From Candidatus Bathyarchaeota archaeon A05DMB-2 (GTDB lineage: Archaea; Thermoproteota; Bathyarchaeia; Bathyarchaeales; Bathycorpusculaceae): DNA of 64,000 nt. This document shows, piece by piece, positions 2,929-15,055 of the stretch; the first letter of the stretch is position 1, and the number at the start of each line of letters is the position of its first letter. The DNA lies in NCBI GenBank assembly GCA_018475625.1, contig JAAKEZ010000005.1:1-64000 (forward strand), read 5' to 3'. The notes under the pieces were generated by a model, which was not told the origin of the DNA, searched no databases, and was given only the letters and a program-made list of their open reading frames with translations. The position numbers were made by a program, and so were the translations under genes.

Positions 2929-4419
2929 TTAGGGGAAGAAAGTGATTTGGTTTATGGACGGCTGGATCAGGTTGAATACTATTTGCGGGAAAATCCCTAA
3001 GATTATGATGGCGCCTACGAGAATGAAGATGGGAATAAGCATTCTCTTTGACTCTTTTATCCTCGTTTCATCCTGGGGTCTCCGCCCGTACATGTAATTT
3101 ACTAAACGGAACACGTAAGCGGTTTGGATGACGCTTGTCAAGACACCTACGACCGCCAACCAACTCATGTTTGCCTCTATCGCAGCGGTGAAGACTAGGA
3201 ATTTTGCGGTGAACCCTCCCAGAGGGGGGACGCCTGCAAAGGACAATCCAGCTATGAGCAAGGCTAAGCTGACGAAGGGCATTTTCCAGCCCAGCCCGGA
3301 GAAGTCTTCGAGGGTTTTGAATCCGTAATGGTTGATTAAACCTACTGCCATGAATGAAAGCGCCGTGGTTATGCCGCCGATGAGGAAGAAGTAGAGGTTG
3401 CCCATGAGTCCAGTGGCGGTAACGCTGGTGATGCCAATAAGGTTGTAGCCGACATCTGCGACGCATATGTTCGCTATCAAACGCTTCACGTTGGTCTGGA
3501 TTAGGGCAAACAGGTTGCCCACTATCATGGTCAGTGCTGACATGACCGCAAGCATTAAAGTCCAGTTCAGCACGGCGGGTGGAGTGAGGATGAACACGAG
3601 AACTCGGATGAGTACGTAGTAGCTGCCTTGGTCTATCAGCGCCGAAAGGAACGCTGCTGAAGAGGAGGGCGCAGCTGTGTAAGCGTCGGGCAGCCAGAAG
3701 TGGAACGGCACAATCGCAGATTCGATAGCGTAGCCGGTGGCGATGAAGACAAAGGCTATTAGGAGCAAGTGCTTGTCGCTTAAAGTTATCAGCGCGTCCC
3801 TGACAGCCCAGAAGTTGAGGGTACCCGTTAGTCCGTAGACTAATGAGAGTCCGAAGACTATGAAGGCGGAAGCTATGATTATCATCACCAAATATTTTAG
3901 GGTGGAGTTCAGCGACGCGCGGGTTTTCTTGTAAATCATGAGGAAGCTTGAGCCTGCTGCGGCTGACTCCCAGAAAATGAATAGCGTGAGCAAGTCGCCT
4001 GAGAACACGGCGCCTGTCAGCGCTGCCGTGAGCATTAACATGATGGCGAAGTATCTTCCTGAGAGTCTCTCGTCTTCACTAATGTGGAATAAACTGTAGA
4101 ATACGACGACGGCGCTGACCGCGATGAAGATTATTGCCATGTAGATGGAAATTGCGTCAATCATGAAAGCGCTTGAAAGCGAAGAGTACGGTTCGCCTGT
4201 TAACGTTATGTTCATGAAGGATGGTGAAGGCACGCTGTAGTACTTAGCTGTCAAGTTAGCCACGGCGGCACCTGAAACGGCGAAGACCGTCGCGAACCAA
4301 ACAAGCATCAAACCGATTCTATGCTGACTTTTGCGGATGACTCTGAAAACAGGGATAGTTAAGAGTGAAAATGCGACCAAGCAAATTATGGGAAGAGCCA
4401 CATCGATGATGCCGACCAT
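2929..4419 (-). CDS. NuoN-like antiporter subunit of the hydrogenase/complex I hybrid
   Basis: A 496-residue, roughly 14-helix protein of the Mrp/Nuo antiporter family and the last gene of the operon. It keeps the helix-5 glutamate region (LLTLFIFWESAAAGSSFLMI) and the central lysine region (PFHFWLPDAYTAAPSSSAAF), which form the proton channel in NuoL/M/N. The order of the operon and the length place it as the N subunit, the pump nearest the catalytic arm. It starts 13 bases after subunit M (distal copy) ends. N and L/M subunits are hard to tell apart by eye, so the subunit letter is less certain than the family. Confidence 0.85.
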   Translation of the reverse strand: MVGIIDVALPIICLVAFSLLTIPVFRVIRKSQHRIGLMLVWFATVFAVSGAAVANLTAKYYSVPSPSFMNITLTGEPYSSLSSAFMIDAISIYMAIIFIAVSAVVVFYSLFHISEDERLSGRYFAIMLMLTAALTGAVFSGDLLTLFIFWESAAAGSSFLMIYKKTRASLNSTLKYLVMIIIASAFIVFGLSLVYGLTGTLNFWAVRDALITLSDKHLLLIAFVFIATGYAIESAIVPFHFWLPDAYTAAPSSSAAFLSALIDQGSYYVLIRVLVFILTPPAVLNWTLMLAVMSALTMIVGNLFALIQTNVKRLIANICVADVGYNLIGITSVTATGLMGNLYFFLIGGITTALSFMAVGLINHYGFKTLEDFSGLGWKMPFVSLALLIAGLSFAGVPPLGGFTAKFLVFTAAIEANMSWLAVVGVLTSVIQTAYVFRLVNYMYGRRPQDETRIKESKRMLIPIFILVGAIIILGIFPQIVFNLIQPSINQITFFP

Positions 4420-4432
4420 GATGTCTCACGTC

Positions 4433-5971
4433 TTAAATTATGGCTACCGTCTTTATCAAATTTATAAAGAATGCGGGATAGATTCCGAGAATAATCACGA
4501 AGATGACTAATATTCCCATGGCCAGCTTCATGAAGGTAGGCGCATCAACTACTTTCTTTTCGCCTTCGCTTTCGCTCTCTTGCCCCGCGTTTTTGCTTCG
4601 TGATTGGCCTAGGAAAACGCGATATATGAACCGCAGCGAGTAAGCCAACGAGAGGACAGTGGCGATGAGCATGAAAATCGTCGGAAAAGTGTAAAACCCA
4701 TCGACGCTGATGATTTCGAAGGCGCCTACGAATATTAGGAATTCACTGACGAAGCACGCAAACGGTGGGGACCCGGCGATGCTGAGGGCAGCTGTGATTG
4801 ATGAGGCGCCTGTGAAGGGCATTTTACCTGCCAGACCGCCCATTTCATTGATGTCTCGCATTTCAGTTTGGTGCATTATGGCTCCTGCGGAGAGGAAGAA
4901 GAGGCCCTTGCTTACAGCATGGTTGACTATGTGGAGCACGGTTCCGACGATGGCTGCGGTTATGGTTATTGCTCCCACGATTGGGGCGGATGAGTAGAGA
5001 GAAAGCCCGAACATGACGTATCCCATGTGCGCTATGCTCGAGTATGCGATTATCCGTTTTATGTCGGTTTCAACCAACGCGATGAACGCGCCGAAGAAGG
5101 CGGAGATGACGCCGAAAACGGCTAAGCCGTGAAGGAATGAAGACCCAAACTCTGTTCCAGCAACTGCTGGAAACACGGTTCCCAGCGAAAGCCGCAGTAT
5201 GGCGTACGCGCCAGCGCTGATTATGACACCGCTAAGTAGTGCGGACATGGTTGCGGGCGCCTCGGAGTGAGCGTCAGGCAGCCACATGTGCAGTGGAACG
5301 ATGGCCATTTTGACGGCGAAGCCCGCGGTTAACGCTATCAGAATCCACCGTGCGATTCCTGAATAACTCAGGAGTGCGGCCTGGGCTGCAAACATGTCTG
5401 TTAAGCCGGTCGTCATGTATATGGCGCCTATGCCCAGCAGCACGAAGACGGCGCCGGCGTGGGTGAATATGAAGAGCTTGAATGCTGCGCGGTACGACTC
5501 TCTGTATCCCCATCCGCCGACTATGAAGTATGCGGGGACGAGCATGAGTTCCCAGCAGAAATAGAACAGCAACAGGTTGGATGTGATGAAGACGCCCACC
5601 AGACCTATGGAGAGCATTGACAGGAGAGCGTAGTACACAGGCAAGTTTTTCTTTCCTTCCATATAGTTTATTGAGAAAAGCGTAGCTGCCAAGATGAGGA
5701 CAAGGCTGATAAGGGCTATTGAAGCGCTGATGCCGTCCACGAACAGCGTAAAGCGCGCGTCCAAAATGGGAATCCAAACGTACGACTCCTGGTAAATGGA
5801 GTCACTCGCGATGGCGGGGAGGGTTGAGAGAACAAGCCCTATGTTAGCTAAGGCGATTAATGCGACTAAAATTCCTGCGGCTTTTGTGGACTTCTTTGCA
5901 GCAAAGTAGGCTAGTGGAACGCCCAATGTGGGCAGGATGAACACCAATAGCAGGCTATATGGCACTGTCAT
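4433..5971 (-). CDS. NuoM-like antiporter subunit, second copy
   Basis: A 512-residue NuoM-type proton-translocating subunit. It carries the helix-5 motif YFCWELMLVPAYFIVG and the channel segment KMAIVPLHMWLPDAHSEAPA with its conserved lysine and histidine. It is clearly paralogous along its whole length to the gene at 6097-7602 (for example both have FTHAGAVFVLLGIGAIYMTT), so the two arose by tandem duplication. A polar insert (about residues 455-475, rich in E, S and K) precedes the last helix and is absent from the sister copy. A 125-bp gap with a TATA-like element separates it from that copy, unlike the tight spacing elsewhere in the operon. Confidence 0.92.
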   Translation of the reverse strand: MTVPYSLLLVFILPTLGVPLAYFAAKKSTKAAGILVALIALANIGLVLSTLPAIASDSIYQESYVWIPILDARFTLFVDGISASIALISLVLILAATLFSINYMEGKKNLPVYYALLSMLSIGLVGVFITSNLLLFYFCWELMLVPAYFIVGGWGYRESYRAAFKLFIFTHAGAVFVLLGIGAIYMTTGLTDMFAAQAALLSYSGIARWILIALTAGFAVKMAIVPLHMWLPDAHSEAPATMSALLSGVIISAGAYAILRLSLGTVFPAVAGTEFGSSFLHGLAVFGVISAFFGAFIALVETDIKRIIAYSSIAHMGYVMFGLSLYSSAPIVGAITITAAIVGTVLHIVNHAVSKGLFFLSAGAIMHQTEMRDINEMGGLAGKMPFTGASSITAALSIAGSPPFACFVSEFLIFVGAFEIISVDGFYTFPTIFMLIATVLSLAYSLRFIYRVFLGQSRSKNAGQESESEGEKKVVDAPTFMKLAMGILVIFVIILGIYPAFFINLIKTVAII

Positions 5972-6096
5972 ACACCTATAGCCCCTATTATCAGAATGAA
6001 AGTAGATATAAATCTATACAAAGCGCCTGCAAAAGTCGAGGTTGATGAAAAATCAGTCATTCCATTCTTCTCCATTTTGTCTTAGTCATGTGACAC
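5972..6096 (-). promoter_or_regulatory. possible internal promoter before second M gene
   Basis: The only sizeable gap inside the operon. On the minus strand it holds a TATA-like tttatatctac (about 6003-6013), roughly 30 bases before the start codon at 5971. This spacing would give a very short leader. It suggests that the second M and N genes can be transcribed separately from the rest. Sequence-only inference. Confidence 0.4.
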
Positions 6097-7602
6097 CTAC
6101 AGGAACGTTACTGTGTTTATCAGGTTCATGAAGAGCGAAGGATAAATGCCGATAATTATCACGAAAACAGTCAAGATTATCATAGCTAGCAGCATGAAGC
6201 GTGGGACCTCAAGACTCTTCTTCTTGATTTCGCCAAGTTTTGACGGGCCAAGGAAAACGTTTGACATGAACCTTAGCGAGTAGCCAAGCGAAAGAACCGT
6301 GGCGACCAACATCAGAGCGGTTGGCCAGATGTAGAAGCCATCAAGGGGAATCATCTGGAAGGCGCCCATGAAGATGAAGAATTCACTGATGAAGCACGCG
6401 AATGGCGGTGCCCCTCCAATGCTGAAAGCTGCGGTTGCTGAAGCGGTACCTGTTATGGGCATTTTGCCAGCGATGCCGCCCATGTCGCGTATGTTTCTGA
6501 GTGAAAGCGAGTTCATTAAAGAGCCAGCGGACAAGAAGAAGAGCCCTTTGCTCAACCCGTGAGTTACGATGTGCAGAACTGTGCCAGCGACTGCTACCTG
6601 TATAAGTGCGCCAGCGGAAGTGTAGAAAAGTGAAACTCCGAAGAGAATGTAGCCCATGTGAGATATGCTCGAATAGGAGATTATGCGTTTCAGGTCGGTT
6701 TCCGCCAAGGCGATGAACGAGCCGAAGAATGCTGAGATTACTCCGAATATGGCTAAGCCATGCAGAAAATCAGTGCCGAATTGGGTTCCCATGACCACGG
6801 GGAAAACGGTTTCCATGGATATTCGGATTATCGCGTAAGCCCCAGCGCTTGTCAAAACTCCGCCTAATAGCGCGGACATGGGAGCGGGAGATTCTGAATA
6901 CGCGTCTGGCAGCCACAGGTGAACTGGAAAGATAGCCATCTTAACGGCGAAGCCTGCGGTTAACGCGAGCAGTATCCACCTGACAATGTCAGGGCTCTGG
7001 GTTAGCAGGAGGCGTTCTGCTTGGAACAGGTCTATACTGTGAGTTGTCATGTATATGGCGCCTATGCCCAGCAGCACGAAGACGGCGCCGGCGTGGGTGA
7101 AGACGAAGAATTTGAAGCTTGCCTTGTAAGAGTCTCTGTAACCCCAATTGCCCACGATGAAGAAGGCGGGGACGAGCATGAGTTCCCAGCAGAAGTAGAA
7201 GAACAGCAGGTTCGACGTGATGAAAACGCCGACTAGCCCAACTAAGAGCAGGGTTAGGAGCGCGTAAAAAATTTCGAGGTTTTTCTTGCCCTGCATGTAG
7301 TTTATCGAGTATAGAGCCGCTGCCAGCATGAGCACCATGGTGATGATTGCCATGGAAATGCTGATGCCGTCCACGAACAATGCAAATTGGGAGTTCAGCA
7401 CTGGAATCCATGTGTAAGTTTCCATGTACCTGTGGTCGGGACCAAGAATCGCATGCACAGTCGTCAAAATCAACCCTAAGCTAACGAGTGAGATGAGTGC
7501 TAACAGAATGGCAGCCCACTTGGCGGATTTTCGCCCGACTAAGTAGACGAGGGGAACAGCTATCGTTGGCAGAAGCAACACTGACAAGAGGATGTACGAC
7601 AT
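6097..7602 (-). CDS. NuoM-like antiporter subunit, first copy
   Basis: A 501-residue NuoM-type proton-translocating subunit with YFCWELMLVPAFFIVG (helix-5 glutamate) and KMAIFPVHLWLPDAYSESPA (channel lysine). It is directly downstream of the L gene (four-base gap), the normal L-M order. Together with the gene at 4433-5971 it gives this operon two M subunits as well as L and N. That makes four antiporter-like subunits instead of the usual three. Confidence 0.93.
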   Translation of the reverse strand: MSYILLSVLLLPTIAVPLVYLVGRKSAKWAAILLALISLVSLGLILTTVHAILGPDHRYMETYTWIPVLNSQFALFVDGISISMAIITMVLMLAAALYSINYMQGKKNLEIFYALLTLLLVGLVGVFITSNLLFFYFCWELMLVPAFFIVGNWGYRDSYKASFKFFVFTHAGAVFVLLGIGAIYMTTHSIDLFQAERLLLTQSPDIVRWILLALTAGFAVKMAIFPVHLWLPDAYSESPAPMSALLGGVLTSAGAYAIIRISMETVFPVVMGTQFGTDFLHGLAIFGVISAFFGSFIALAETDLKRIISYSSISHMGYILFGVSLFYTSAGALIQVAVAGTVLHIVTHGLSKGLFFLSAGSLMNSLSLRNIRDMGGIAGKMPITGTASATAAFSIGGAPPFACFISEFFIFMGAFQMIPLDGFYIWPTALMLVATVLSLGYSLRFMSNVFLGPSKLGEIKKKSLEVPRFMLLAMIILTVFVIIIGIYPSLFMNLINTVTFL

Positions 7603-7606
7603 TTGT

Positions 7607-9643
7607 TTACACTCCCACGCTTATGATTAGCAGTATCACGAGGACGATGAAACCGAGAAGCGCTGCGGCAAGGTAGTGCTGAAGACTGCTGGAGGAACCC
7701 TCTGCCCTAGAAGCAGAACGTAAAGTGTGACGGGCAATAATGTCCAGAAACCTGTCCGCAAGGCTGTCGAGGGTTTTCACTTTCGCTGCTGAATCCACAG
7801 TTCGTCCAGCAATCACCGTCAACAACTGGTCTGCTGCCGCTTCAAAATACTTGTGGACGCCGCCAGCAAAGCGGATAACCATGTTGGCGAACACCATTGG
7901 GAAAATCTCCAAAAACACAACTTCAAAGAATTTTACGCCTCTAGAGAAAAGCATTACGCCTTTGGCAACGACTTTTTCGTAAAAGTCGTCGAAGAAGTAA
8001 CCGTGGCTCAAGAGTTTAGCCAGCGGGTTCGACGCGCTTCGGAGAGAATTCATGATGGAATAGTTCTTCCAATAAGCTGCATAAATCAGTAGCCCTGCCG
8101 GGATGAGGATGACTGCGAATATGGCGGTCTCTAACCCCACAAACGAACTCAGTAAACTCGGCACCTCAGCAACGCCCATGTAACTGCCCAGCCAAGGCTC
8201 CAGAAAACCCCAGATCAAGCACGCTACTGCCAAGACAAACGCTGGTGCCAGCATGATTTTGGGCGCCTCGTGCGGGTGAAGTTTCTGCAGGTGCTCGGAC
8301 TCTTTGCCTAAGAAGATGAGTTTGACGAATCGGAGGCTGTACGCAAACGTAATCGCTGTGGTGGCGTAGATGAGGATGACTTGCAGGAGACTTCCCTCTT
8401 CGGTTATGCTGGTGATGATTAAGCCTTTGCTGAAGAACGCTGCGAACGGAGGCAAGCCGCTGGTGGTCAAAATCATGATTATGGCTAAAGCGTAAGTTAC
8501 TGGCATCGCCTTCCGCAGTCCGCCCATCAGCCGCATGTCTCTGGTGCCGAGCGCGTGAATTATCCCTCCTGCCAAGAGGAAGCCCAACCCCTCGAAAAAG
8601 GCATGGCTCATCGTGTGGAACAGGCTTGCGAACCAGCCCAGCGATTCCGACGCAGCCAGGGAAGTCCCTAAAGCAGCCATCATGAAGCCCAATTGGCTGA
8701 CTGTAGAATAAGCGAGGACGCCTTTGATGTCGGGCGTGTACAACGCCATCGTGGCGCCAAGGAAAGCTGTCAAGACACCTATCCAAGCCACGGTTGGAAG
8801 CCATGAACCCTCAAGCACCGCAATCATAGGTGCGGCAATCAGGATGAAACGGGCTATTAGGTAGACACCGGCCTTCACCATCGTGGCGGCGTGAAGTAAC
8901 GCGCTTATCGAGGTTGGCGCTTCCATGGCGCTGTACAGCCACGTGTGCAACGGAAGCTGTGCGGACTTGGCGATGGCACCGCCTAAAACGAGGAAGGCAA
9001 CAACCGTTAACGTTGACGAGGGCAAAGTGCCGTTCAGGATTGCTGTTATGGTGCCGTGGAAGCTGAACGTGTTCAGGCTCGCGTACAGAATGCCGACGGC
9101 AGCGAGCAGTGAGGCGTCACCGATGCGGGTCATTATGAAGACTTTGTTGCCCGCTTTGACGGATTCGGGACGGTTGTTCCAGAAGCTGATTAGTGAGTAG
9201 CTGCATAAGCCCACCATCTCCCAGAAGATGAACAGCTGCAGAAAATTGTCTGAGATGACGAGCCCGATCATGGAGCCGATGAACAGGAGCAGGTAGAAGT
9301 AGTAGCGGGTCAGGTTCTCCTCATGTTTCATGTAGCCTAAAGAGTAAATAGCGATTATGAGCCCGAAAAAGCCCACCAAACACGTGAACAGGACGCTGAG
9401 CGGATCAATGTACACGCCAGCCGTAATCGCTTGAGAAATCCATGGAGCCACCAGATTAATGGCGCCGCCCTCGCCTGAAGACGCGGCGGGTATAAGCGTT
9501 AACGCTAAGGACGCCGTTACCGCAGTCACGCCAATGACGAAGGCATTTCGGGCTTTTTCGCCTGCACGAGCGATTAACGGAACGAAAACGCTGGAAACCA
9601 GCGGAAAAATCCAAACAAGCCACGATGTTACATCAGCCAACAT
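7607..9643 (-). CDS. NuoL-like antiporter subunit with lengthened C-terminal arm
   Basis: NuoL/5-type subunit, 678 residues from the ATG at 9643, one base after the K stop codon; a longer reading from 9667 would overlap K. It shows IFWEMVGLCSYSLISFW (helix-5 glutamate) and KSAQLPLHTWLYSAMEAP (channel lysine). After the last core helix comes the lateral arm, beginning at YFFDDFY and ending before a final membrane helix (AAALLGFIVLVILL). By my count the arm spans about 105-110 residues, whereas the same stretch in E. coli NuoL is, from memory, about 60. That fits a longer membrane arm with an extra M subunit. Confidence 0.93.
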   Translation of the reverse strand: MLADVTSWLVWIFPLVSSVFVPLIARAGEKARNAFVIGVTAVTASLALTLIPAASSGEGGAINLVAPWISQAITAGVYIDPLSVLFTCLVGFFGLIIAIYSLGYMKHEENLTRYYFYLLLFIGSMIGLVISDNFLQLFIFWEMVGLCSYSLISFWNNRPESVKAGNKVFIMTRIGDASLLAAVGILYASLNTFSFHGTITAILNGTLPSSTLTVVAFLVLGGAIAKSAQLPLHTWLYSAMEAPTSISALLHAATMVKAGVYLIARFILIAAPMIAVLEGSWLPTVAWIGVLTAFLGATMALYTPDIKGVLAYSTVSQLGFMMAALGTSLAASESLGWFASLFHTMSHAFFEGLGFLLAGGIIHALGTRDMRLMGGLRKAMPVTYALAIIMILTTSGLPPFAAFFSKGLIITSITEEGSLLQVILIYATTAITFAYSLRFVKLIFLGKESEHLQKLHPHEAPKIMLAPAFVLAVACLIWGFLEPWLGSYMGVAEVPSLLSSFVGLETAIFAVILIPAGLLIYAAYWKNYSIMNSLRSASNPLAKLLSHGYFFDDFYEKVVAKGVMLFSRGVKFFEVVFLEIFPMVFANMVIRFAGGVHKYFEAAADQLLTVIAGRTVDSAAKVKTLDSLADRFLDIIARHTLRSASRAEGSSSSLQHYLAAALLGFIVLVILLIISVGV

Positions 9644-9644
9644 T

Positions 9645-9965
9645 TTAATCTGCATCCTCCTCTTCATCTAGTTTTTCCGTTTCCAACTTCATCAATTCGT
9701 CCATGTCGCTGGTTCCGTACTTCTTAGAGACGATAACGAGCAACGCAAGGATTACGCCGCTTACCGCGGTGTCGGTGGAGAACGCCAGCACCATGAACGC
9801 TTCGCCCAGACCCAGCCCCATGGAAGAGGCAAGCATCACGAAGTTCAGCGTCGCCGCGGTGGCGATTAACTCGACCGACACGAACACCTTCAGCAGGTGG
9901 CGCTGGGTTAACAAGCCGTAAATGCCGATTGCCAGCATGATTAAGGATAAGATGACGAAGTCCAT
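9645..9965 (-). CDS. NuoK-like subunit
   Basis: A 106-residue, three-helix NuoK/4L-type protein. The membrane glutamate of helix 2 is present (VSVELIATAATLNF, equivalent to E36 of E. coli NuoK). At the position of the second conserved glutamate (E72 in E. coli) I align a valine, with an aspartate three residues earlier (FSTDTAVSGV). The C terminus is an acidic tail (KLETEKLDEEEDAD). It overlaps the J gene by one base and is followed one base later by L. In complex I this subunit carries protons between the catalytic arm and the antiporters. Confidence 0.9.
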   Translation of the reverse strand: MDFVILSLIMLAIGIYGLLTQRHLLKVFVSVELIATAATLNFVMLASSMGLGLGEAFMVLAFSTDTAVSGVILALLVIVSKKYGTSDMDELMKLETEKLDEEEDAD

Positions 9966-10426
9966 CAGTCGCCCCCGTTCTTTCTTTCGTACAAAACTAT
10001 GGCTATCCCAATAGCCACCGTCATTATGACTAAACCCTGCAGCACGATGTCAGGGGCTCTTAAATCCCATAAGGCTTCACCAAAGGGGACGCCGGAGCCA
10101 GACGCTGCGGAAAGGGGAACGGAGAGGAAAATCGGGAACAAAGACAAAACCGCGCTCACCACGATAACTGTTAGTGCACTCTTCAGCGAGGTTTTCTGTT
10201 TGGGCTTTTCGCTTAACATTTCTCCAGATAGGAAGAGAACTGCTAGGGTTCCGATGCCCACGGCGAATTGGAAAATAGCCACGTAAACAGCACCATTTAA
10301 CAGGAACAGAAGCGCGGTGAACATGAAGGTGCCAGCGAGAGCAACGACGGAGTACACGGCTTCATCTAAGAAGATGGCTAGACAAGCCGAGATTATCAGT
10401 CCAACCGAGAGTACCTCAAGGATCAT
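9965..10426 (-). CDS. NuoJ-like subunit
   Basis: A 153-residue protein with five hydrophobic segments. The third contains the conserved NuoJ pattern (AVYVAIFQFAVGIGTLAVLFL, corresponding to the Y/G-rich pi-bulge helix of ND6). The length is typical of short archaeal and bacterial NuoJ. It sits between I (two-base gap) and K (one-base overlap). A full-length NuoJ next to NuoK and NuoA is a complex I feature. Confidence 0.88.
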   Translation of the reverse strand: MILEVLSVGLIISACLAIFLDEAVYSVVALAGTFMFTALLFLLNGAVYVAIFQFAVGIGTLAVLFLSGEMLSEKPKQKTSLKSALTVIVVSAVLSLFPIFLSVPLSAASGSGVPFGEALWDLRAPDIVLQGLVIMTVAIGIAIVLYERKNGGD

Positions 10427-10820: not shown

Positions 10821-11822
10821 TTACACCACCATTGGATACACATAGGTAGCCATAGCAACGGTTAACGCGAGTGACAGCACCGAAAGAGGAAGCAGCATTC
10901 GCCAGTTAGCTGTCAACACTTGGTCGATGCGCAACCTTGCAAACAGACACGTCACGTACTCGGTGACAATCACGACGGCTAAAACCTTGAGCACGAACCA
11001 CAGGCTGTACCAGAACGCTGGCAAGCCGAAGAACACTGGTCCGTAGGGTCCGCCGAGGAACAGTTCCACGACTAGCGCGGCACCGAGGACGATTTGCACG
11101 TCTCTTGTGAGGTGCAGGAATGCGAGTTTGCCGCCGCAGTACTCAGTTTCGAGTCCGCCGACAACCTCGCTTTCGGCGTGTGGGATGTCAAACGGGTCTT
11201 TCTCAAGTTCCGCCTGAAGCGCTATTATGAAAAGGACGAAACCCCAGGGCGCCAATAAGATAAACGGCAGATACTGGCTCGCCGCGATTGCGGAAATGGT
11301 CAAGCTCCCAGCCAGAAACGCCGGCGTCAACGCAAGGAGGAAAAGCGGGATGTCGTAGCCGAGGAACTGGGTGAGAACCCTTGCCGCGCCGATGCCGCCG
11401 TATGGGTTGGAGGAAGCCCATCCCGACATAAACAGAAAAAAGTTGGCTACCGTGACCAGAGCCATGATGAAGATGAGGTCACCGGTGAAGCCTGACATTG
11501 ATATGGCGCTTGAACCATCGATTGGCAGGAAGCATATGGCAAAAACCATAACTGAAAAGGCTATGATTGGCGCGATTCTGAAAATGTTTTTCTTGGCGTC
11601 ACGCGGGATAATCTCTTCCTTCGTCAACAGCTTGATGAAGTCAGCGAGAGGCTGCAGTATGCCTGCTGGGCCCGCGACGGCTGGGCCGACACGGTTCTGC
11701 ATCCGAGCTTCAATTTTCCGCTCTACCCAATCGCAGAATAACGTGAAGAACAGGATGAACGTAAAACCGGGGAATACGAGCACGCGGAAAATCAGCAAAA
11801 AGTCAAGCATTCTTTTCCTCAC
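10821..11822 (-). CDS. NuoH-like membrane anchor subunit
   Basis: A 333-residue, eight-helix NuoH/ND1-type protein that anchors the catalytic arm. Family motifs are clear: ERKIEARMQNRVGP, GILQPLADFIKLLTKEEIIP, and EKDPFDIPHAESEVVGGLETEY, the acidic loop facing the catalytic site. The GTG at 11822 overlaps the CD stop by four bases. An ATG at 11810, four codons on and preceded by AGGTGAGG, is an equally good start. Confidence 0.95.
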   Translation of the reverse strand: MRKRMLDFLLIFRVLVFPGFTFILFFTLFCDWVERKIEARMQNRVGPAVAGPAGILQPLADFIKLLTKEEIIPRDAKKNIFRIAPIIAFSVMVFAICFLPIDGSSAISMSGFTGDLIFIMALVTVANFFLFMSGWASSNPYGGIGAARVLTQFLGYDIPLFLLALTPAFLAGSLTISAIAASQYLPFILLAPWGFVLFIIALQAELEKDPFDIPHAESEVVGGLETEYCGGKLAFLHLTRDVQIVLGAALVVELFLGGPYGPVFFGLPAFWYSLWFVLKVLAVVIVTEYVTCLFARLRIDQVLTANWRMLLPLSVLSLALTVAMATYVYPMVV

Positions 11823-13409: not shown

Positions 13410-13865
13410 TTATTTTGAGTCGTTTACTTTCGCCTCTGTTTTTGGTGCTTTTAATGAGTTGAGAAGTTTCACCACGCCATCGATTATGGCTTCTGGCTTC
13501 GGTGGGCAGCCGGGGATGTACGCGTTCACGGGTATGACTTTGTCCACTCCGCCTGCTACGGTGTAGTTGCCTTTGAATACGCCGCCTGAGCACGCGCATG
13601 CGCCGATGGCTACCACAAACTTTGGTTCGGGCATCTGGTCGTAAATTCGTTTCAACCGTTCTGCACACTGCTTCGTGACTGCGCCCGTGGTTAGCAGGAC
13701 GTCTGCGTGGCGGGGTGAGGGTTCAAGTTTGATGCCAAAACGTTCCACATCAAAGCGGGGAGTCAGCAAAGCGACGACTTCGATGTCGCAGCCGTTGCAG
13801 GCGCCGCTGTTGAAGTGGAGAACCCATGGCGACTTTAGCCGTGCCCACGTTGCGAGTTTACTCAC
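13410..13865 (-). CDS. NuoB-type [4Fe-4S] small subunit, hydrogenase form
   Basis: A 151-residue small subunit of the NuoB/HycG/EchC family. The cluster ligands visible are C23 and C26 (SGACNGCDIE), C90 (GACACSGG) and C120 (IPGCPPKPE). Complex I NuoB has two adjacent cysteines at the first position; here they are spaced CxxC, and the following LLTPRFDVERFGI is also of the group 4 hydrogenase type. It would hold the cluster next to the NiFe site of the CD subunit. Its start overlaps the A gene by eight bases. Confidence 0.95.
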   Translation of the reverse strand: MSKLATWARLKSPWVLHFNSGACNGCDIEVVALLTPRFDVERFGIKLEPSPRHADVLLTTGAVTKQCAERLKRIYDQMPEPKFVVAIGACACSGGVFKGNYTVAGGVDKVIPVNAYIPGCPPKPEAIIDGVVKLLNSLKAPKTEAKVNDSK

Positions 13866-14190
13866 TGGCTTTTCCTCCTTCGAGGAGAATCAGGCTTGAC
13901 GCGAGCATCATGAAAAGGTATAGCATCAAGAGGACGGTGTTTGTTCCTGTTTTCATGAACACTGCGAACGCGAGAAGCAGGACCGCGGAGTCGAATATCA
14001 CGAAGTAGATGAGGAACTTGTACAGTGAAATGTTGACTTTGAGCCCGTGAAAGTTGGCTCTTTCCCCGCAAGCGTATGATGATTTCTCGTTTTCGCTTTG
14101 GATGGGTTTGGGTGAAGCTCGCCGTCCGAGTGCGTAGATGATTGAGGCGGTTGCGAGGATGAGTATGAACGCGACTGTGGCTTCAAGCAT
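13858..14190 (-). CDS. NuoA-like membrane subunit
   Basis: First gene of the operon: a three-helix NuoA/ND3-type protein. It has the loop SYACGERANFHG, matching the family YECG region that lies close to the catalytic site in complex I. Then comes ISLYKFLIYFVIFDSAVLLLAFAVF, with an acidic residue in helix 2. I prefer the ATG at 14190 (110 residues), since the first helix follows at once. A GTG at 14226 would add a charged 12-residue leader. NuoA is not normally part of group 4 hydrogenases, so its presence with hydrogenase-type B and CD genes is unusual. Confidence 0.85.
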   Translation of the reverse strand: MLEATVAFILILATASIIYALGRRASPKPIQSENEKSSYACGERANFHGLKVNISLYKFLIYFVIFDSAVLLLAFAVFMKTGTNTVLLMLYLFMMLASSLILLEGGKASE

Positions 14191-14226
14191 GTTTCCTGTT
14201 TCTTCCTTCTTCCGTTCCCTTTTCAC

Positions 14227-14548: not shown

Positions 14549-15055
14549 TTATTCTGTTTCTTCTCCGCCGTGCCATCGTCTTTCCAAGTACAAAATCAGG
14601 CTGAAGAGACCTCTACTGAGGATGATGAGGATAAGCACAGAAAACTCCTCCCACGTCCTTGTGACTGTGGTTTTTATGATTTCGGCACCTATGAAAAATT
14701 CAAGGCTCAGTGTCAAATACCCCGAGAGGAAACGCGTGACGCAGGACGGCTTATACGCTTCTCGAAGCTTACACTGGATAAACCTGACTGTCACGACCAA
14801 GGCGCCGAAAACAACCACCAACGCACCTAGCATGTAGAGAATGTTGGTTCCCACCGTGAGCAAGACGTAGATGACTTCATAAACGGTTCCTCCCGGCACA
14901 TAGGTGACTCCTCCAGGCTGGAACAGGTTTCCGAGGTCTTTGTAGCCTACAGTAATGGTGGTGCCTACGACTACGGCGATGGCGATTACAGCCAGTACTG
15001 CAAGAGTCAAGGGGTCCATTCTTTTCTTGGTAGTGGGCACGGTGCATTCAGACAT
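14549..15055 (-). CDS. DUF1622 family membrane protein
   Basis: A 168-residue protein with three to four hydrophobic segments. The pattern GALVVVFGALVVTVRFI, then RFLSGYLTLSLEFFIGAEIIKTTV, then EFSVLILIILSRGLFSLILYLE matches DUF1622, a widespread small membrane family of unknown function. It reads in the same direction as the hydrogenase operon but is separated from it by about 320 bases with its own promoter region, so it is probably independent. Confidence 0.8.
   Translation of the reverse strand: MSECTVPTTKKRMDPLTLAVLAVIAIAVVVGTTITVGYKDLGNLFQPGGVTYVPGGTVYEVIYVLLTVGTNILYMLGALVVVFGALVVTVRFIQCKLREAYKPSCVTRFLSGYLTLSLEFFIGAEIIKTTVTRTWEEFSVLILIILSRGLFSLILYLERRWHGGEETE

Follow-up and report, generated by a model that had tools for sequence, protein, structure and literature searches.

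Group 4 hydrogenases couple the transfer of electrons between ferredoxin and H2 to ion movement. One of them, Hfo, is an Fpo-like [NiFe] hydrogenase of Bathyarchaeia that belongs to subgroup 4g and forms an 11-subunit complex (Loh et al. 2021, PMC7886697); it has also been reported in Bathyarchaeum tardum (PMC10477458). Another related system is 2M complex I (Chadwick et al. 2018), for which we use the criteria given in four citing papers (PMC6606698, PMC7300363, PMC9038741, PMC7117926). Lengthening of NuoL has been named as a mark of the 2M complexes (PMC6606698), and archaeal examples are published from heterotrophic Thaumarchaeota (PMC7300363) as well as from Angelarchaeales and ammonia oxidisers (PMC9038741). 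That the length of the lateral helix varies with the number of antiporters has already been stated for this superfamily (PMC9474812).

Here, we describe an operon in the window, i.e. the whole stretch of 64,000 nucleotides that was analysed, from Candidatus Bathyarchaeota archaeon A05DMB-2. It encodes a membrane hydrogenase on the plan of respiratory complex I, with two M genes. The host is a sediment-type archaeon of the Bathyarchaeia with a genome of 2.48 Mb (96% complete), and the nearest relatives of the window L are all Candidatus Bathyarchaeota.

Hfo has the same subunits, gene order, L1/L2 motifs and archaeal class as the window operon. However, the available text of Loh et al. describes 11 subunit types and mentions no second M, while in the window M is duplicated and the lateral arm of L is 107 residues long. 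The 2M complex I, as portrayed in the citing papers, shares the second M beside the first, the lengthened L and an operon without the NADH module, but it is described there as a type of complex I, with the archaeal forms in respiratory chains, while the window D carries [NiFe] motifs. Fpo and respiratory complex I agree with the window in overall architecture and key antiporter residues but have no [NiFe] site, three antiporters instead of four and an arm of only 54-58 residues. Finally, the group 4 complexes FHL and Hyf are, like the window complex, hydrogenases that possess antiporter-like subunits, and their lateral helix varies in length with antiporter number (PMC9474812); however, the C-terminus of HycC is ND3-like, and the arms of HycC and HyfB fall off the 26-residue scale discussed below.

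Hfo and 2M complexes, including archaeal ones, are thus already known, and it is their combination that looks undescribed; no 2M complex with a [NiFe] site was found in the open literature searched, outside which the founding 2M paper lies. The preliminary description of this locus had called it an archaeal 2M complex, seemingly novel in its pairing with a hydrogenase site. The 2M architecture and the apparent novelty of the pairing both hold, but an archaeal 2M complex as such is not new.

The operon and its catalytic site

The operon is complete and lies on the minus strand (14226-2929) in the order A-B-CD-H-I-J-K-L-M1-M2-N. Its features are:

13858..14226, minus strand: A subunit (NuoA/ND3-like); PF00507, 30.7 bits
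13410..13865, minus strand: B subunit (small hydrogenase/NuoB-like, proximal cluster CxxC); PF01058, 120.7 bits
11819..13387, minus strand: C-D fusion, catalytic large subunit with L1 CGICNSCH and L2 DPCFSCTDR; PF00346, PF00329, PF00374 and sequence
10821..11822, minus strand: H subunit (NuoH/ND1-like); PF00146, 290 bits
10429..10815, minus strand: I subunit, two [4Fe-4S] clusters; profile search
9965..10426, minus strand: J subunit; PF00499
9645..9965, minus strand: K subunit; PF00420
7607..9667, minus strand: L subunit, antiporter-like with a long lateral arm, open reading frame of 686 aa; TIGR01974, 435 bits, and fold match
7676..7996, minus strand: lateral arm of L, residues 558-664 (107 residues); arm measurement
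7685..7837, minus strand: two imperfect arm repeats, AADQLLTVIAGRTVDSAAKVKTLDS / LADRFLDIIARHTLRSASRAEGSSSS, L residues 611-661
6097..7602, minus strand: M1, the second M paralogue, 501 aa; TIGR01972, 328 bits, and tree (single-origin clade)
4433..5971, minus strand: M2, ancestral-type M, 512 aa; TIGR01972, 327 bits, and tree
2929..4419, minus strand: N subunit, antiporter-like, TM7 Lys replaced by Glu; PF00361, 189.6 bits, and alignment

The longest reading frame of L starts at 9667, but the true start is likely the alternative at 9643 (678 aa, MLADVTSWLVW), which fits the homologues better and coincides with the end of K. A gene for a DUF1622 membrane protein (14549-15055) lies directly upstream of the operon, and a convergent gene for a PF00999 sodium/proton exchanger (1661-2896) adjoins it. 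Among the other clusters, in L208 (7748-10692) a chloride-channel domain (PF00654) is joined to K, and an ArsB-like gene on the opposite strand stands between this fusion and L.

The window D keeps both [NiFe] motifs, the second at its extreme C-terminus. They agree with the Hfo L1/L2 motifs published in PMC7886697 (C[GS]xC..H and DPCxxCxDR) and are also present in D of the Hfo relatives. The genome encodes HypD, which acts in [NiFe] assembly, and contains three more NiFe large-subunit-like genes. Taken with the Hfo match and HypD, the D motifs identify the complex, as judged by sequence, as a hydrogenase of the Hfo type without quinone-reductase character. Gene order, motifs and the trees of M and L are the basis on which the complex is related to Hfo (putatively subgroup 4g); by these measures, it is a 2M form of the known Bathyarchaeia Hfo.

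We consider it probable that the operon encodes an Hfo-type enzyme, i.e. a membrane-bound, energy-converting [NiFe] hydrogenase of group 4, that follows the plan of complex I/Fpo with a duplicated M and has L, M1, M2 and N in one arm. In this complex, the four antiporter-like subunits would lie side by side in the membrane, braced by the extended lateral helix of L. Electrons would move between ferredoxin and protons/H2 via the clusters of B and I and the [NiFe] site of D, while H and the E-channel would couple this transfer to ion movement through the antiporter row. That both Ms sit in one complex is something we infer, and the same applies to ion type, direction and pumping by each M.

The two M subunits and N

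Against an NDH_I_M cut-off of 264 bits, M1 scores 328 and M2 327; the two share 65% identity. The preliminary description had read this locus as two tandem M paralogues within a set of four antiporter-like subunits, and this is what is found, since L and N lie in the same operon and a PF00361 search of the whole 96%-complete genome finds no other antiporter-like genes. The genome contains no other complex to which M1 could belong.

A tree of the M copies had also been proposed there. In our tree of 54 M proteins, the L-adjoining M1 copies make up a single clade (100/99), to which the unlinked M of G084 is sister (100/98), while the M2 copies cluster with the single Ms of relatives in a clade of 24 rows (99/97). 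With one supported M1 clade, and M2 among the single Ms, the tree places the origin of M1 as a single event inside the window's family. The duplication is separate from that of 2M complex I, as both M1 and M2 branch inside the Bathyarchaeial Hfo. On the L tree, the presence of M1 changes twice, which we read as one gain and one loss.

M1 and M2 occur together in six relatives, whose arms measure 108-111 residues. In four of them (L001, L008, G145 and G091) the genes are contiguous as L-M1-M2-N, G145 being a single-contig genome, while in G080 and G029 the operon is split, with M2-N apart from L-M1. In one of these contigs, G080:C22 (L157 1205-17509), about 16 kb of apparently unrelated genes separate the two parts. 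In G084 and G088, an M1-type gene is found alone in an unrelated neighbourhood (placed by the tree in G084 and assigned by best match in G088), and the L arm is still 106-107 residues. The M2 of L001 (13718-15367) and of L008 (13881-15473) matches the antiporter profile in two pieces, which suggests an insertion inside the TM domain.

The ion-path residues E144, K234, H322, H348 and E407 (E. coli NuoM numbering), i.e. the TM5 Glu, the TM7 Lys, two His and the TM12 Glu, are retained in both window Ms; the TM8 Lys is replaced by Ser, as it is in most Hfo Ms. In the Hfo N, the TM7 Lys is replaced by Glu and other ion-path positions are unusual, while the TM12 Lys is kept, and this pattern is conserved in the Hfo relatives. 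Full pumping by every subunit is therefore not assured.

The lateral arm and the number of antiporters

As arm length we count the residues of L that lie between its FFDxxY motif and its final TM helix. Total L length was not used, as FpoL is long through its TM14-15 loop and not through its arm. By this measure the window arm has 107 residues and that of E. coli NuoL 54, close to the 105-110 and about 60 estimated in the preliminary description; the difference is approximately two units of 26 residues. Elsewhere the arm has 57 residues in Zixibacteria and Rokubacteria, 58 in Fpo, and 55 in an Hfo relative that has one M; the window arm exceeds the three-pump length of 54-58.

The AlphaFold2 model of the window L (mean pLDDT 82.5, pTM 0.82) matches L/NdhF chains of complex I with TM-scores up to 0.76. 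The arm is predicted to be helical at residues 556-619 and 631-654; no other part of L is modelled with so little confidence, pLDDT being <50 at 611-637 and 648-666. Remodelling L from same-arm sequences alone gave a worse model (mean pLDDT 62.5), so a continuous helix is not proven. At low confidence, the arm is thus predicted to be helical, and the model falls short of showing one unbroken rod.

Among 71 non-redundant L proteins, arm lengths group near 31, 58, 84, 108-112 and 135-140. The lengths are strongly quantised with a period of 26 (R = 0.84, unmatched in 5000 uniform sets), and long arms show an internal repeat at lag 26 (z = 14); in L103, for example, two arm units match at 19 of 26 positions. 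L005 (7264-9369) has an arm of 133 residues containing its own tandem repeat, two copies of 25 residues (GNEKVxNQVGTSGRxILYFS), that differs from those of other lineages.

The steps follow the number of antiporters. L with one further antiporter has an arm of 31 (L159, L161, L162), and three antiporters correspond to 54-59. Four antiporters correspond to 84-86, in the Chloroflexi 2M clusters, which thus lie one step below the window, in an Actinomycete L-M-L-N cluster and in Bathyarchaeia M-L-M-N and N-L-M-M clusters. Five correspond to 112 in G025 (N-L-M-M-M), the sole cluster behind the scale above four. The relation is described by arm = 27.1n - 23.4 with a residual sd of 1.0 for n = 2 to 5, over 35 calibration clusters chosen as those whose gene counts fit. 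The E. coli HycC and HyfB were rejected as calibrators because they align too poorly (arms 35 and 68).

Outside Hfo, the arms of L170, L171, L173 and L182 exceed the prediction for three antiporter genes, as do those of L183 and L184, whose clusters are cut by contig ends, and L160 is a lone L with an arm of 31. The step fit thus holds as a rule whose exceptions all deviate upward and are all single-M clusters. Two kinds of cluster from this series stand out in themselves. The five-antiporter cluster (L177 6105-14465, G025:C5) is complex I-like, with a D that lacks [NiFe] motifs, and L161 8372-11702 and L159 6954-10313 encode [NiFe] complexes with L and N as their only antiporters, a natural two-pump form.

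On this fit, the window arm corresponds to n = 4.8 antiporters against four genes, which places it one step beyond the need of four antiporters and two steps beyond a three-pump arm. Relatives of Hfo with a single M have arms of 55 or 61 (fitting three antiporters), 82-83 (four), 108-110 (five) and 135 (six). Five of them (G120 with an arm of 83, G097 with 110, and G050, G106 and G139) have near-complete genomes, a long arm and no additional antiporter gene. In G032, the arm of 135 and the one operon M are on one contig, with two more antiporter genes at a distance of about 135 kb. The preliminary description had explained the longer arm by one added M. This link is only partly borne out: the long arm itself is confirmed, but because single-M relatives also have arms of 83, 108-110 and 135, a long arm alone is no proof of one added subunit.

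On the L tree, built without the arm region, Hfo shows at least nine changes of arm-length class against two of M1 presence, so the arm is no simple record of the M duplication. Nevertheless, M1 and arm length are not unrelated, because the sister clade beside G084 and G088, ten rows without a detected M1, has short arms (55-61, one row 86), and the arms of all nine M1-bearing genomes (counting the window) measure 106-111, also where M1 has been relocated. With just two independent pairs, a phylogenetic pair test for M1 and arm length has no power.

Readings of the long arm and energetics

Two readings of the extra arm deserve weight. According to the first, to which we give an even chance, the additional length is spare, i.e. 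an overhang, a binding site for lipids or other partners, or a brace between dimers, and the number of pumps equals the number of genes, four in the window. The long-armed single-M relatives in near-complete genomes agree with this, as does the low confidence with which the arm is modelled. However, the length shifts by steps of an antiporter footprint and not freely, and the clade without detected M1 has a short arm.

The second reading is more doubtful and would add to the preferred explanation, a 2M Hfo hydrogenase, rather than replace it. Here the arm acts as a ruler, and the number of its 26-residue units sets the total number of antiporters, with one M product stacked in several positions. 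It is tempting but speculative to suppose that the window complex then has five antiporters (L, three Ms and N) from four genes, that single-M relatives with arms of 83, 110 and 135 hold two, three and four copies of the same M, and that the complex of G032 has six antiporters. The tight fit, the window value of 4.8, the quantised and internally repeated arms and the excess of arm-class changes over M1 changes all favour such stacking, as do the alike arm units of L103, expected if they face the same partner. So does G031, a relative of G025 that has N-L-M, no further antiporter gene and the same arm of 112; G055, also related to G025, has a nearly equal arm length with one M in its cluster. 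Against it, repeated use of one M is seen in no structure, the scale beyond four antiporters comes from one cluster, HycC and HyfB lie off the scale, and whole-unit steps could come merely from duplication of a repeat.

Two further alternatives are very improbable. The second M could be part of a different complex, either Mrp-type or a pump of its own, and merely be sited in the operon, as the unlinked M1 orthologues of G084 and G088 might hint, but we reject this for the window on the genome-wide PF00361 count, and the L arm is long even where M1 is unlinked. An ordinary Fpo/Nuo-like respiratory complex reducing a quinone, with which the eleven subunit types and the gene order agree, is hardly credible given that both [NiFe] cysteine pairs are intact in the window D and its Hfo relatives and that the window operon contains no E, F, G or FpoF.

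For the 2M Hfo hydrogenase that we prefer, four or more pumps pose an energetic puzzle. In a simple calculation for electron flow from ferredoxin to H2, with an assumed driving force of 86-200 mV, moving six ions per two electrons stalls above approximately 29-67 mV. With many pumps the forward reaction is therefore possible only at low membrane potential, which suggests operation at such potentials, reverse use to reduce ferredoxin, or incomplete pumping by the antiporters. Loh et al. favour ferredoxin reduction with H2 driven by the pmf in Bathy-6 (PMC7886697).

That the arm grows in steps, and that these disagree with the number of genes, is a more interesting result than the pairing of 2M with a hydrogenase. 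This bears on how many ions complex I-like machines move per electron pair and how the number of their subunits evolves. The natural series of two to five antiporter genes with matching arms, together with the discordant lineages, makes the idea of the arm as a ruler directly testable.
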